A stretch of 64,000 nucleotides of DNA from positions 398,183-462,182 of the forward strand of contig NZ_LMDW01000020.1 in assembly GCF_001425205.1 (NCBI RefSeq), written 5' to 3'. The notes under the pieces are model-generated. The model saw only the letters and a program-made list of their open reading frames with translations. It was not told the origin of the DNA and ran no database searches. Both the position numbers and the translations under genes were made by a program. Below are positions 19,214-45,072 of this stretch, in pieces (positions within the stretch are counted from its first letter, which is position 1; each line of letters opens with the position of its first letter). This DNA comes from Variovorax sp. Root411. GTDB lineage: Bacteria > Pseudomonadota > Gammaproteobacteria > Burkholderiales > Burkholderiaceae_C.

Positions 19214-20692
19214 ATGATTTCTTCCGAACTTCTCCCGATCTGCATCGCAGGCGAATGGCGCCTGGGCGGCGGCGACGTGTACGAGAGCTTTTATCCGGCC
19301 ACCGGCGAACCCATCGCGCGCCTGAAGGCCGCGAGCCTCGCCGATGTCGAGGAGGCCATCACCCGTGCCGACCATGCGTTCCGCACCAGCGGCTGGGCCC
19401 AGCGCCTGCCGCACGAGCGCGCCGCCGTGCTGCACCGCGTGGCGCAGCTGATCCGCGAAGAGGGCGAGTCGCTCGCGCAGAAGCAGCGCCTGGACAACGG
19501 CAAGCCGATCAGCGAAACGCGCAACCTCGTGGCCAGCGCCGCGGGCACTTTCCAGTTCTTCGCGGCAGCGCTCGAGACGCTGGAAGAAACCATCACCCCT
19601 TCGCGCGGCGCCTTCGTCACGATGAGCGTGCACGAGCCGATGGGTGTGGTCGCGGCCATCACGCCGTGGAACTCGCCCATTGCGAGCGAAGCCCAGAAGC
19701 TCGCACCCGCGCTCGCGGCCGGCAACGCGGTGGTCGTGAAGCCCGCCGAAGTCACGCCGCTGATGGCGCTGGAGCTGGCGCGCATCTGCGAGCAGGCCGG
19801 CGTGCCGAAGGGCATCGTGAGCGTGCTGCCGGGCAGGGGCTCGGTCATCGGCGATGCGATCACCAAGCATCCGCTGGTCAAACGCGTGTCGTTCACGGGT
19901 GGCACCACCACCGGCAAGCACATTGCGCACATCGCGGCCGACAAGATGATGCCGGTGTCGCTGGAGCTGGGCGGCAAGTCGCCCACCATGGTGCTCGACG
20001 ACGCAGACCTCGAGCATGCGGTGAATGGCGTGCTGTACGGAATTTTCAGTTCGTCCGGCGAGTCGTGCATCGCGGGTTCGCGCCTGTTCGTGGCGCGCGG
20101 CATCTACGACGAGTTCCTCACGCGGCTGGCCGAAGGCGCCAATGCATTGCGCGTGGGCGATCCGGCCTTGGAGCGCACGCAGATGGGGCCGCTCATCACC
20201 GCCAAGCATCGCGAGGGCATCGAGCGTTATGTGGACCTGGGTGTGTCCGAAGGCGGGCGCATCCGCACTGGTGGCGTGCGCCCGCACGGCGCCGGCTACG
20301 ACGGCGGTTATTTCTACAAGCCGACCATCATCGAAGGTCTCGACAACAGCGCGCGCATCAGCCAGGAAGAGATCTTCGGCCCGGTGCTCGTCGCGATGCC
20401 TTTCGACGATGAAGAGTCCCTGATCGCGCAGGCCAACGACAGCGTCTACGCGCTGGCCGCCGGCATCTGGAGCCGCGACTTCAAGCGCGCCTGGAAGCTC
20501 GGCCGCGCGGTGCAGGCCGGCACGGTCTGGGTCAATACCTACAAGCAGTTCTCAGTGTCCACGCCGTTCGGTGGCTGGCGCGACAGCGGCCTGGGCCGCG
20601 AGAAGGGCCGCGAAGGCATCTTCCAGTACATGGAGCAGAAGAGCATGTACTGGGGAACGAACGAACAACCTTTGCCTTGGTCACTGGGATGA
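19214..20692 (+). CDS. NAD(P)-dependent aldehyde dehydrogenase
   Basis: A 492-residue ALDH-superfamily enzyme. Catalytic residues N153 (TPWNSP), E251 (LELGGKS) and C285 (SGESC) are all present with the usual spacing. The C-terminal motif STPFGGWRDSGLGREKG is typical of betaine/hydroxymuconic-semialdehyde-type ALDHs. It starts 8 bp after the AspDH gene. In the operon it would oxidise an aldehyde produced by the ThDP enzyme or by ring cleavage to a carboxylate. The exact substrate cannot be read. The palindromic element begins 34 bp after its stop. Confidence 0.92.
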   Translation: MISSELLPICIAGEWRLGGGDVYESFYPATGEPIARLKAASLADVEEAITRADHAFRTSGWAQRLPHERAAVLHRVAQLIREEGESLAQKQRLDNGKPISETRNLVASAAGTFQFFAAALETLEETITPSRGAFVTMSVHEPMGVVAAITPWNSPIASEAQKLAPALAAGNAVVVKPAEVTPLMALELARICEQAGVPKGIVSVLPGRGSVIGDAITKHPLVKRVSFTGGTTTGKHIAHIAADKMMPVSLELGGKSPTMVLDDADLEHAVNGVLYGIFSSSGESCIAGSRLFVARGIYDEFLTRLAEGANALRVGDPALERTQMGPLITAKHREGIERYVDLGVSEGGRIRTGGVRPHGAGYDGGYFYKPTIIEGLDNSARISQEEIFGPVLVAMPFDDEESLIAQANDSVYALAAGIWSRDFKRAWKLGRAVQAGTVWVNTYKQFSVSTPFGGWRDSGLGREKGREGIFQYMEQKSMYWGTNEQPLPWSLG

Positions 20693-20725
20693 AATCCTTC
20701 GCTTCCATTTGTCGCGTTGTGCGTT

Positions 20726-20983
20726 GTTCGGGGTGCGATCACGCCGACGGGGTACCTTGCTCCGCGAATGTCCCCCGGCCTGCGGCCTCCTCCTTTATTT
20801 CGCTGCGCAAGGCACCCCGCCAGCGTGATCGTTGGACAGAGCAGTCGTTGATCGGCCAACACCACAGCCGCGCTCATCGTGCACAGGGCACCGGGTGCTC
20901 CCCGCAGCGAAATAAAGGAGGAGCCGAAGGCGGGGGACATTCGCGGAGGGGAGTACCCGGTGGCCTGTGCACGCGCCCCGAGC
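20726..20983. repeat. Nested palindromic repeat element, copy 1
   Basis: About 258 bp between the ALDH and dioxygenase genes. The outer inverted ends are GTTCGGGGTGC and GCGCCCCGAGC. The left hairpin half (20751-20814) has stem CCTTGC/GCAAGG around GAATGTCCCCCG and CTCCTCCTTTATTTCG. The right hairpin half (20892-20959) carries the same core inverted, with stem GGGTGCTCCCC/GGGGAGTACCC. An unrelated spacer of about 75 bp separates them. The same structure recurs at 31278 and 44088. The right half contains AAAGGAGGAG but too far from the next ATG to act as its ribosome site. Confidence 0.85.
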
Positions 20984-21026
20984 AAGAGCACCCGAACGAA
21001 ACAACGCAGCACAGCGAAAGCCTGAC

Positions 21027-21998
21027 ATGAGCGTACTCGGCATCGACCAGATCACCTATGGGGCAGACGACCTGCCCACCTGCCGCCGCTTCTTCGAAGA
21101 CTGGGGCCTCGCGCTCAAGTCGGAAGCGCACGACGAACTCGTCTTCGAGTGCCTCAACGGCTGCAAGGTCGTCGTTGCGGCGTTGGACAAGCCCGGCCTG
21201 CCGAGCGCGATGGAAGAGGGCCCGACGCTGCGCGAAGTGGTGTGGGGCGTGCAGAACGATGCGGACCTCGACCGCTACGCCGCCGCCATCGCTAAAGATC
21301 CGGCCTTCTTCGACAGCACCGTCGACGGCGCACGCCGCATCGGCTGCATCGACCCCAACGGCCTCGCCGTGCGCCTGCAGGTCAGCCGCAAGCATGCCGT
21401 CGACGTCGAATGCGGCGCCATGAACACCTGGAACGCCAAGCCGCGCATCAACCAGGCCGCACCCATCTACGAACGCGCGACGCCCATCGAGGTCGGCCAC
21501 GTCGTGTTCTTCGTGAGCGACGTGAAGGCCACCAGCGCGTTCTACGCGCAGCGCTTCGGCTTCGTCTCGTCCGACAGCTATCCGAACCGCGGCGCCTTCA
21601 TGCGTTGCGCGGCGGAGGGCGGCCACCACGACCTGTTCCTGCTGCAGATTCCCTCGGGCAAGCGCGGGCTCAACCACGTGGCCTTCACCGTGCGCGACAT
21701 CCACGAGGTGTTCGGCGGCGGCCTGCATTTCTCGCGCCGCGGCTGGGAAACCCAGCTCGGCCCGGGCCGTCACCCGGTGTCTTCGGCGTACTTCTGGTAC
21801 TTCAAGAACCCGGCCGGCGGATTGATCGAGTACTACGCCGACGAAGACCAGCTCACCGCCGACTGGCAGCCGCGCGAATTCGAGCCCGGCCCCACGGTGT
21901 TCGCGGAATGGGCGGTCGACGGTGGCCTCGATGGAGACACGCGCCGCCAGAAGAACGCGGAAGGCCCCAAGGGCGCTTTCCTTACCGAAAAGAAATGA
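21027..21998 (+). CDS. Two-domain VOC protein, extradiol dioxygenase type
   Basis: A 323-residue protein with two vicinal-oxygen-chelate modules. The second carries the Fe(II) ligands of type I extradiol dioxygenases: H158 (VGHVVFF), H217 (LNHVAF) and E268 (GGLIEYY), with spacing close to BphC-type enzymes. The N-terminal module (about 1-140) lacks metal ligands, as in that family. It should cleave a catechol-like ring meta to the hydroxyls. The ATG at 21027 is taken because the first VOC strand (LGIDQITYGADDL) starts there; the upstream frame belongs to the palindromic element. The next gene overlaps or nearly touches its stop. Confidence 0.82.
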   Translation: MSVLGIDQITYGADDLPTCRRFFEDWGLALKSEAHDELVFECLNGCKVVVAALDKPGLPSAMEEGPTLREVVWGVQNDADLDRYAAAIAKDPAFFDSTVDGARRIGCIDPNGLAVRLQVSRKHAVDVECGAMNTWNAKPRINQAAPIYERATPIEVGHVVFFVSDVKATSAFYAQRFGFVSSDSYPNRGAFMRCAAEGGHHDLFLLQIPSGKRGLNHVAFTVRDIHEVFGGGLHFSRRGWETQLGPGRHPVSSAYFWYFKNPAGGLIEYYADEDQLTADWQPREFEPGPTVFAEWAVDGGLDGDTRRQKNAEGPKGAFLTEKK

Positions 21999-31277: not shown

Positions 31278-31473
31278 GTTCAGTGCGTCGCTCACGCCGA
31301 CGCGGTGACCTTTTTCGCGAATGTCCCCCGCTTCGCTCCTCCTTTATTTCGCGAAAAAGGCCCCCGCATCGGCGTGATCGTTCAGAGTGCTCCCCGCAGC
31401 GAAATAAAGGAGGAGCGAAGCGGGGGACATTCGCGGAGGGGAGTACCCGGTGGCCTGTGCACACGCCCCGAAC
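31278..31473. repeat. Nested palindromic repeat element, copy 2 (short form)
   Basis: About 196 bp, between two convergent genes. The left half is a perfect hairpin: 13-bp arms CCTTTTTCGCGAA / TTCGCGAAAAAGG around GTCCCCCG and CTCCTCCTTTA. The right half carries the inverted core with the TGCTCCCC / GGGGAGTA stem, as in the other copies. The spacer between halves is much shorter than in copies 1 and 3. The core of left and right halves is exactly complementary (GGAGGAGCGAAGCGGGGG on the right). Confidence 0.85.
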
Positions 31474-31485
31474 GAGAGCGCTTAA

Positions 31486-32223
31486 TTACGGCGCAACGAT
31501 CGCACCCTCGATGCGATGGCGTTTCAACGCATCGGCCACAAACCCCGAGGCCTTCATCTCCTCGACAAAGGACGAGAGCAACGCTTGCGCCTCGGCCCCA
31601 CGGCCGGCCGGTGTGCCCATGGCTTGCTGGATCACCATGAAGCGTCCCGGCAGCACACGCACGCCCGGCATGCGGGCAGCTTCGCCTTCGAGCAGCTGGC
31701 GGATGCCCGCCGCCACCTCGACCTGGCCCGCACGCAACGCGGCGAGCGCAGGGCCTGCACCCTGGAGGCGCACGATCTCGGCGGCCTTGATCTCGCGCGT
31801 GAGGAACAGGTCGTAGGCGCTGCCCGCGCCGACCGAGATGCGATGGCCTTCGGCATCGACCTGCGCGTTGTCGGTCAGCACCGACGATTCGGGCACGAGG
31901 TAGCTGCCTTCGATCAGCACGTAGGGTGCCGTGAAGCGCAGCCCTTCGCTGCGCGCCGGATCGACCGCGAAGAAGCCGATGTCGGCCTTCTCGTTTTTCA
32001 CCGCGTCCACCGAGGCCGCGGCCTTCTCGAACACCACCAGCTCGATGCCCACGCCAAGCCGCCGCGCGAACTCGCGTGCAACGTCGATCGACACGCCGAC
32101 GGGCTCGCCCGTGGCGACGTCCTTGTTGGCGAGGATCGGGTTGCCGAGGTTGATCGAGGCGCGCAGCGTGCCGCTGGGCGCGAAAGCGGAAACGAGGGCG
32201 GGGGAGATGGTCGGCTGTGTCAT
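31486..32223 (-). CDS. Family 3 extracellular solute-binding-like protein without signal peptide
   Basis: A 245-residue protein with the amino-acid-type SBP fold: LRASINLGNPILANKD, PVGVSIDVAREFARRLGV, ADIGFFAVDPARSEGLRFTA, ALRAGQVEVAAGIRQLLEG. Family members are periplasmic receptors of polar amino acid ABC transporters. No signal peptide is visible, and no permease or ATPase genes are adjacent. It may be cytoplasmic, exported by another route, or have a longer start not seen here. Its stop lies 12 bp from repeat copy 2. Confidence 0.75.
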   Translation of the reverse strand: MTQPTISPALVSAFAPSGTLRASINLGNPILANKDVATGEPVGVSIDVAREFARRLGVGIELVVFEKAAASVDAVKNEKADIGFFAVDPARSEGLRFTAPYVLIEGSYLVPESSVLTDNAQVDAEGHRISVGAGSAYDLFLTREIKAAEIVRLQGAGPALAALRAGQVEVAAGIRQLLEGEAARMPGVRVLPGRFMVIQQAMGTPAGRGAEAQALLSSFVEEMKASGFVADALKRHRIEGAIVAP

Positions 32224-44074: not shown

Positions 44075-44087
44075 ATGAGGCGCCGTC

Positions 44088-44347
44088 GTTCAGGGCTCGC
44101 TCACGCCGACGGGGTACCTTGCTCCGCGAATGTCCCCCGGCCTTCGGCCTCCTCCTTTATTTCGCTGCGCAAGGCACCCCATCGACGTGAGCGTTGTTCG
44201 CTCCGGAGGTTGATCGGCCGCGAACCAGCAGCGTGTCCTCTTGCACAGGGCGTCGGGTGCTCCCCGCAGCGAAATAAAGGAGGAGGGCGAAGCCCGGGGG
44301 ACATTCGCGGAGGGGAGTACCCGATGGCCTGTGCAAGCACCCCGAAC
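44088..44347. repeat. Nested palindromic repeat element, copy 3
   Basis: About 260 bp between the two ATPase genes of one transporter operon. Outer ends are GTTCAGGGCTC and GCACCCCGAAC. The left half has stem CCTTGC/GCAAGG with tip GGCCTTCGGCC. The right half has stem GTGCTCCCC/GGGGAGTAC with tip GGGCGAAGCCC, so the tips differ in sequence but each is self-complementary. The operon on either side is intact, so the insertion is tolerated or useful. Confidence 0.87.
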
Positions 44348-44370
44348 ACAACCCAAACGAGTCCAAGAAT

Positions 44371-45072
44371 ATGAGCAACCTCATGCTGAAGGTAGAAGAC
44401 CTGCACGTAGCCTACGGCCAGAGCGAGGCCCTGCACGGTATCTCGTTCGAGGGAAGGGCCAACGAAACGATAGCCATCATGGGCCGCAACGGCATGGGCA
44501 AGACCACGCTGTTCAAGGGCCTGATGGGAATCTTGCCCTTGAAGAGCGGGCGCATCGAGGTAGCAGGCCAGGACGTGTCGCGCGACGAGAGCTTTCGCCG
44601 CGTCGCCAAGGGCATCGCCTACGTACCGCAAGGCCGGATGATCTTTCCGACGCTCACGGTGGAGGAGAACATCCAGACCGGCCTGGAGAACTCGAAGACC
44701 CGCCGCATCCCCGAGGAAATCTACGCGCTGTTCCCCGTTCTGTGGGACATGAAGACCCGCAAGGGCGGCAACCTTTCCGGCGGCCAGCAGCAGCAGCTGG
44801 CGATTGCGCGCGCCCTCGTCACCGACCCTAAGGTGCTGCTGCTCGACGAGCCCACCGAAGGTATCCAGCCTTCGATCATCAAGGACATCGCCAAGGCGCT
44901 CAACGAGATCCGCAAGCTGCGCGGCATCACCATCGTCGTGTCCGAGCAGGTGCTCAGTTTCGCGATGGACGTGGCCGACAGGCTCTTCGTCATCGAAGGC
45001 GGCCGGCTCGTGCACGAGACCGCGCGCGAGAAGACCGATGTCGACCACATCAAGGCCTATCTCTCCGTTTGA
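44371..45072 (+). CDS. urtE: ABC transporter ATP-binding protein, UrtE type
   Basis: A 233-residue ATPase. Walker A is GRNGMGKTT (the Met is typical of UrtE), the Q-loop is YVPQGRMIFPTLTVEENIQTG, the signature is NLSGGQQQQLAIARALV, and Walker B is LLLDEPTEGIQPSII. It is the second ATPase of the importer. It follows repeat copy 3 and precedes formamidase by 36 bp. Confidence 0.93.
   Translation: MSNLMLKVEDLHVAYGQSEALHGISFEGRANETIAIMGRNGMGKTTLFKGLMGILPLKSGRIEVAGQDVSRDESFRRVAKGIAYVPQGRMIFPTLTVEENIQTGLENSKTRRIPEEIYALFPVLWDMKTRKGGNLSGGQQQQLAIARALVTDPKVLLLDEPTEGIQPSIIKDIAKALNEIRKLRGITIVVSEQVLSFAMDVADRLFVIEGGRLVHETAREKTDVDHIKAYLSV

Follow-up and report, generated by a model that had tools for sequence, protein, structure and literature searches.

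The stretch of DNA analysed here (the window) comprises 64,000 nucleotides of contig NZ_LMDW01000020.1 from Variovorax sp. Root411 and contains three copies of an element in which two hairpins, termed B and A, are arranged in inverted orientation around a spacer. Copy 1 (20726..20983, plus strand) has the layout B-spacer-A and lies between co-oriented genes for an aldehyde dehydrogenase and an extradiol dioxygenase-like protein. The purine strand, on which each half folds, is the minus strand for its hairpin B (20742..20825, 88.6 bits with a covariance model) and the plus strand for its hairpin A (20885..20966, 86.6 bits); copy 1 taken whole is far more stably folded than shuffled sequences, with z-scores of -12.0 and -10.5 on the two strands, and comparison with empty sites extends the additional DNA to about 20693-21026. 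Copy 2 (31278..31473, plus strand) has a shortened spacer and combines a C-type variant of the B half with an A half. Its hairpin B carries C-type arms (31295..31374, purine strand minus, 75.2 bits), and the inner arm of its hairpin A (31377..31456, purine strand plus, 59.8 bits) is cut by the spacer deletion. Copy 3 (44088..44347, plus strand) occupies the gap between the co-oriented genes urtD and urtE (NCBIfam assignments), with hairpin B at 44104..44187 (purine strand minus, 88.5 bits) and hairpin A at 44247..44330 (purine strand plus, 85.1 bits); full-length orthologous copies are found in 22 other genomes among the best 30 loci. The original prediction placed three copies of a nested palindromic element at these positions, each of which we re-found, and its description of two inverted hairpin halves with common outer ends and a near-constant core applies to all three. 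It also placed copies 1 and 3 inside operons, in agreement with their co-oriented flanking genes; copy 2 differs, being located between genes that converge according to a codon model, the left one an open reading frame with no family match.

A cmsearch of the window with the covariance model, which was built from 28 diverse hairpins including two rows (L235) that are the hairpins of copy 3 itself, returned exactly these six hairpins (59.8-88.6 bits, E <= 2.2e-11), all on the strand carrying GGAGG and GGGGG, and the next match has an E value of 0.67. At gathering score, Rfam identifies only a tRNA in the window and assigns the element to no family; below threshold, copy 1's hairpin B comes closest to a miRNA model, with 23.5 of 90 bits. 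Open reading frames cross the elements at 44075-44374, 20677-21030 and 31283-31816. We rejected a coding function because the hairpin tips (7, 9, 11 nt and other lengths) and the distances from stop codon to core vary out of frame. Hypothetical small ORFs called by annotation pipelines across such elements may be explained in this way.

The genome (6.06 Mb in 21 contigs) contains 183 half-copies at no more than one mismatch, and a control search with the reversed pattern returned none. This is far above the handful of copies below which the idea of a dispersed repeat was to be abandoned, and it corresponds to ∼90 elements, or about one per 67 kb; the predicted density of one per 20 kb thus holds locally but not genome-wide. 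From fetched stretches of this genome together with the window we parsed 77 inverted two-hairpin elements, five of which contain N, and 16 single halves. The core-to-core distance is 99-104 bp in 49 of the 77 elements and 31-92 bp in the other 28 (four of these contain N). Each hairpin measures 80-101 nt when cut with 22-nt arms, and pairing persists at positions 23-28 in 81-85% of 392 hairpins. The element has polarity, since its halves differ in their outer arms in 77 of 77 pairs: the mean outer-arm identity is 0.51, the maximum is 0.71, and no pair reaches 80%, nor does any pair in three further sets (0 of 42, 0 of 11, and 0 of 6). Typical arms read GTGCACAGGCCACCGGGTACTCCCC in A and GATCACGCCGACGGGGTACCTTGC in B, and a variant of the B half ends in CCTTTTTC. 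Long perfect palindromes tend to be deleted by bacteria, and the unlike arms possibly avoid the long perfect palindrome that like arms would form. The outer ends resemble GTTCRGGGYGCG on both sides in this genome, where 72 A and 68 B halves, compared over their outer 100 nt, have GTTC[GA]GGG as their conserved end. The inserted DNA exceeds the conserved part, as the copy 1 junction measures 342 nt compared with 4-21 nt in 26 relatives.

Some loci depart from the usual unit. One contains a five-hairpin array with orientations + - + - - (L226:4950-5710), reminiscent of BIMEs. In a Lysobacteraceae MAG, two hairpins of the same orientation directly follow a gene end (L131:2270-2530), and the preceding ORF resembles an ATP synthase epsilon subunit by eye. 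In a single case, inverted hairpins 736 bp apart surround an ORF for a DUF2306 membrane protein (L112:3590-4400), so that the unit might carry a gene.

An asymmetric internal loop of 11 x 8 unpaired bases, in which ATAAAGGAGGA faces GGGGGACA, is common to both hairpins. It is closed by GCGAA/TTCGC, and the arms of the hairpins are almost completely changed between genera yet still complementary. Standard pairs make up 93.4% of the 784 cells in the alignment of 28 diverse hairpins, compared with 63.8% after shuffling and 37-42% after sliding; seven misparsed, truncated or badly paired hairpins had been removed beforehand from a set of 35, which favours the pairing figure. Changes on both sides of a pair account for 222 cells (67.6 when shuffled) and affect 24 of the 28 pair positions. 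The closing stem itself covaries in a set of 313 distinct hairpins selected for complete pairing of the closing stem, of two or all three tip positions, and of 11 or more of the 20 arm positions (GCGAC/GTCGC in 8, GCGGC/GCCGC in 4). The loop strands TGTCCCCC and TCCTCCTTTAT are near-constant, a constancy that is partly due to data selection for core and loop, as most loci were fetched via the core. One position pair within the loop swaps (C·T in 298, T·C in 12, T·T in 2, and C·C in 1 of the 313 hairpins; Fisher p = 8e-19 from unweighted counts that ignore relatedness). On the purine strand this corresponds to an exchange of G·A for A·G, as would be expected if the two bases touch.

The hairpin B orthologs between urtD and urtE (n = 23) were retrieved with a query that included the flanks. 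Their stems show compensated changes, for example at positions 7, 8, and 13, and pairing is often lacking at positions 1, 3, 10, 16, and 20. In 19 of the 23 the loop has stayed the same while the arms have changed. These orthologs bear on the idea that the elements are passive palindromes whose perfection is maintained by template switching or gene conversion, and which spread through ordinary recombination. Template switching can yield complementary arms without selection, and shortened spacers are indeed common (the 28 of 77 pairs noted above). Such repair should, however, reach the 11 x 8 loop as well, and it leaves the orientation of the elements relative to genes (see below) unexplained; we therefore consider passive palindromes very improbable.

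The mismatches in the stems indicate which strand folds. Read on the pyrimidine strand, A·C cells outnumber G·T cells by 301 to 20 in A halves (n = 166), by 368 to 32 in B halves (n = 163), and by 135 to 33 in other hairpins (n = 63), the cells in these counts being in many cases co-inherited rather than independent events. Much of the excess comes from few columns, above all positions 10 and 16; restricting the comparison to columns that are at least 60% Watson-Crick leaves 78 versus 20 (A), 144 versus 28 (B), and 128 versus 33 (rest). The 35 diverse hairpins have 74 A·C and 31 G·T cells, the tips have 21 and 19, and 50 hairpins from Lysobacteraceae have 61 and 7. On the purine strand these A·C cells become G·T or G·U wobbles, and we thus take the purine strand as the folding strand. 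DNA folding energies point in the same direction: the purine strand of L235 folds with -25.9 kcal/mol and is open only at the loop and at two conserved mismatches, compared with -17.9 kcal/mol for the pyrimidine strand, and the corresponding values are -42.7 and -38.1 kcal/mol for L131 and -40.2 and -39.0 kcal/mol for L149. RNA folds agree in direction with the DNA folds.

Inversion of the halves places the purine strand of A and that of B on different DNA strands, each pointing away from the centre of the element. When the element is oriented as usual, A has its purine strand in the sense direction of the flanking genes and B has it in the antisense direction. This arrangement matters for the possibility that the element is a transcribed intercistronic RNA, whose cores would pair mutually or fold apart in the mRNA and so set the processing or stability of the neighbouring messages, with selection on expression keeping place and orientation. 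The wobble pairs in the stems are consistent with such a role, as are the gene context described below, in which divergent gaps are rare (2 of 76), and the orthologous retention with compensatory change between urtD and urtE in 23 genomes; Di Nocera et al. argue likewise for REPs from location and GT pairing in the accessible text of PMC3733652. A role in the sense mRNA alone, however, predicts no bias or the opposite bias for B, whose antisense purine strand is biased in the same way as that of A, and many relatives have no element at the same junction (for copy 1, 26 short junctions among the best 30 loci). An mRNA-confined role therefore leaves B unexplained, for which reason we favour a mechanism in which single-stranded DNA is recognised at both of two symmetric ends, and we regard the RNA element as unlikely.

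To type the gene context, we used log-odds of codon use derived from 28 window ORFs. The typing covers 76 elements of the genome, because in the remaining one of the 77 (L082) the typing rule labelled both halves alike; the 16 single halves were not used. Hairpin B faces the 3' end of a gene in 70 of the 76 elements, with 53 in the order gene-B-A-gene, 17 between convergent genes, 4 reversed, and 2 between divergent genes, which supports the predicted intergenic placement. Within co-oriented gaps, 53 of 57 elements have the order gene-B-A-gene (binomial, 53 versus 4, p = 6e-12). A cruder gene call based on GC3, superseded by the codon model, had given 25 forward, 13 reversed, 20 convergent, and 17 divergent among 75. 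In loci of other genomes, 23 of 43 pairs could be typed, with 17 in the order gene-B-A-gene, 6 convergent, and none reversed; one further genome (G119) has 3 convergent and 1 reversed among 4 typed of 6 pairs, and typing gave no result for 11 Lysobacteraceae pairs. A stop codon was located for 64 of the 70 elements, 1-82 nt from the conserved edge of B.

Comparison of the junctions in other genomes (best 30 loci per search, 29 rows for copy 2) reveals both filled and empty sites. The urtD-urtE junction of copy 3 is represented by 23 full copies (one our own), 3 with internal deletions, and 4 empty sites with only 1-3 nt from stop to start. At the copy 1 junction, 2 loci are filled (our own and G066), 26 have 4-21 nt, and 2 have another insert of 158-159 nt. 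For copy 2 we count 8 filled sites (one our own), 4 deleted forms, 16 sites without the element, and 1 ambiguous case. Filled and empty sites among relatives at tight stop/start junctions thus support dispersal of the element. The different 158-159 nt insert at the copy 1 junction of G039 and G016 (L309 and L322) starts with ATGAAA and contains CGCACTTCGTGTCGCT, which occurs with at most one mismatch in 9 loci examined; sites of this type may thus serve a second repeat family as well.

The B-side stop codon has an ATG no more than a few nucleotides away in 30 of 49 cases, and on the A side a TGA just precedes the downstream ATG in 17 of 38, as if a stop/start junction had once stood on both sides. 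These flanks resemble decayed duplications and bring to mind a classical MITE derived from a DDE insertion sequence, in which the 12-nt word GTTCRGGGYGCG would form the terminal repeats and insertion would leave a short target duplication. The word is present at both ends in this genome as a terminal inverted repeat, and at copy 1 the empty-site word CTGACATGA recurs unchanged on the right and as CTGGGATGA on the left, which is suggestive of a duplication at this copy. Yet 10-mers show no signal of target-site duplication over the 77 copies when compared with shuffled flanks, and 38 pairs anchored on stop and start score 6.13, compared with 6.05 ± 0.12 for shuffled pairs, 60 of 200 shuffles scoring as high as the real pairs. 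As the pairs are no more alike than shuffled ones, we claim no target duplication, and ATGA at both ends was dropped as proof of one. In addition, the 12-mer was not seen by eye in hairpins of other genera, and conservation is centred on the internal loop and less on the ends. A DDE-type MITE is thus improbable.

Exact cores are found in 73 of 100 genomes of the genus, ranging from 0 to 289 per genome (289 in G066). In a sample of the family they occur in 23 of 299 genomes and 12 of 141 genera, the genus itself contributing 4 of the 23. In a phylum-wide sample, a bipartite pattern matches 4 of 398 genomes, of which two belong to the genus, one to the family, and one (G425) to the class. In the family of the latter, 17 of 297 genomes and 5 of 54 genera match. 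The named matches of this kind, among the matches listed, are Lysobacter antarcticus and a Lysobacteraceae MAG, and we therefore read this family as Lysobacteraceae. NCBI taxonomy places Variovorax in Comamonadaceae and Lysobacter in Lysobacteraceae; the element is present in both families. Carriage by phages or plasmids was considered and rejected: viral contigs contain no exact bipartite match, a blastn search of phages with copy 1 returned none, and the three matching records in a plasmid collection are all Variovorax replicons of 1.19-1.30 Mb.

REP-type repeats are mostly known as short GTAG hairpins tied to RAYT transposases. A Y1_Tnp gene is present in 96 of 100 genomes of the genus, as a single copy in 93, irrespective of the number of elements, and its presence does not follow that of the element: 70 of 73 core-bearing and 26 of 27 core-free genomes have it. 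The 31 loci of 30 sampled Y1_Tnp genes contain no hairpin and no model match up to E = 1; six of them have a four-mismatch match to one half-word, which has no partner. The Y1 protein of our genome scores 74.2 of 80 bits with the NCBIfam model for REP-associated tyrosine transposases, below its cut-off. The original prediction had proposed a search for a RAYT-type transposase; with no association in our own and 100 genomes of the genus and no hairpin flanking the sampled genes, we rejected a RAYT origin. A conserved GTAG/GTGG-type foot is likewise not seen in the 28 aligned hairpins (22 nt outside GCGAA) or in the outer 100 nt of the 72 A and 68 B halves of our genome.

The predicted likeness to a REPIN with longer arms therefore stands for layout, copy number, intergenic sites, and dispersal, and falls for those defining features of RAYT-associated REPs that we examined. 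Inverted hairpin pairs and many intergenic copies are present (183 half-copies, 77 pairs), but the repeats measure 80-101 nt instead of ∼20-40 nt. Intergenic location, unidirectional and convergent sites after stop codons, GT pairing, and dimers are reported for REPs in the accessible text of the literature consulted (PMC3733652, PMC6006769, PMC8266576, and PMC2817692), and so these features are not new. The wider likeness to REPs, REPINs, and BIMEs, judged from the accessible portions of PMC3733652, PMC8266576, and PMC2817692, includes many intergenic copies, two inverted hairpins, compensatory changes in the stems, alternating arrays (as in L226), uni- and convergent sites after stop codons, and a strand-specific hairpin. 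Our element differs from them in its far longer hairpins, which pair as far as position 28 or beyond and contain the conserved 11 x 8 loop, in the lack of a visible conserved tetranucleotide foot, in halves that are unlike in every compared pair, in its nearly fixed direction relative to genes, and in that no sampled Y1 gene is flanked by its hairpins. CGTC-tagged REPs form palindromic dimers without a dedicated transposase, but as described in the accessible text of PMC3733652 they are short and carry the CGTC tag at one end, whereas the constant part here is the internal loop.

A further comparison concerns TIRYT repeats and TIRtrons. The motif GGGGWSAS is given for TIRYT repeats in the accessible text of PMC3733652 and for Y1 subclass 2.1 in that of PMC6006769. 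A single Y1 gene is usual in the genus. On its 3' side, 26 of the 28 loci shown have GGGGTCAG, and the element loop carries GGGGACAT, one base off GGGGWSAS. Differences from TIRtron repeats are that the Y1 loci (31 loci) have no hairpin and that the common word agrees in 7 of 8 bases, a motif resemblance only. From this resemblance the resident Y1 (HUH) transposase would be a doubtful candidate for the mover. We also observed a conserved, TIRYT-like stretch from TGTCCC to GAATCTGACCCC 3' of the Y1 gene in 26 of the 28 loci shown (for example L031:2180-2290).

The repeat family appears to be unnamed, as anticipated: besides the absence of an Rfam family at gathering score, a letter search of the literature, which covered mostly papers outside subscription, matched the core in two papers only, both titled on other subjects. 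With respect to this accessible literature, covered by letter and topic searches, four features are new: a constant part that consists of the large internal loop and shows G·A/A·G covariation, a polar unit with unlike arms, a near-fixed direction with respect to the neighbouring genes, and an occurrence in two families.

Starting from the observed structure, strand preference, polarity, location, and presence or absence among relatives, our preferred reading, to which we assign a probability of roughly 60%, is a non-autonomous, REPIN-like mobile element that is recognised at each of its ends in the form of a folded single strand. Each end carries a long imperfect hairpin, in which the conserved asymmetric purine loop with its GCGAA/TTCGC closing stem, and not the arms, may serve as the mark of identity. 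The strand that carries the loop points away from the element's centre at each end. A trans-acting factor would read this folded single strand at both of them and spread the element. The insertions lie shortly after a stop codon between tightly packed genes, with B toward the upstream stop and A toward the downstream start. The folded form is probably single-stranded DNA and the factor a transposase, and an asymmetric target, for instance a stop/start junction, may cause the orientation bias. Recent movement was not directly seen among the compared loci, and it speaks against a mobile element that no autonomous copy and no transposase gene bearing its ends was found among the elements and Y1_Tnp loci examined.

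More tentatively, and at odds that we place below even, the non-autonomous mobile element may represent a new class of single-strand-recognised mobile unit. Its address would be a G-rich, G·A-paired internal loop within a long hairpin of variable arms; polar two-hairpin elements of this kind, common to Comamonadaceae and Lysobacteraceae, would enter operon stop/start junctions one way, moved by an enzyme new to repeats. With its conserved large internal loop, polar unit, and near-fixed place and direction, the element provides a testable system for the recognition of folded strands, which bears on how mobile DNA may enter operon junctions without breaking genes and on how such inserts may affect operon expression.
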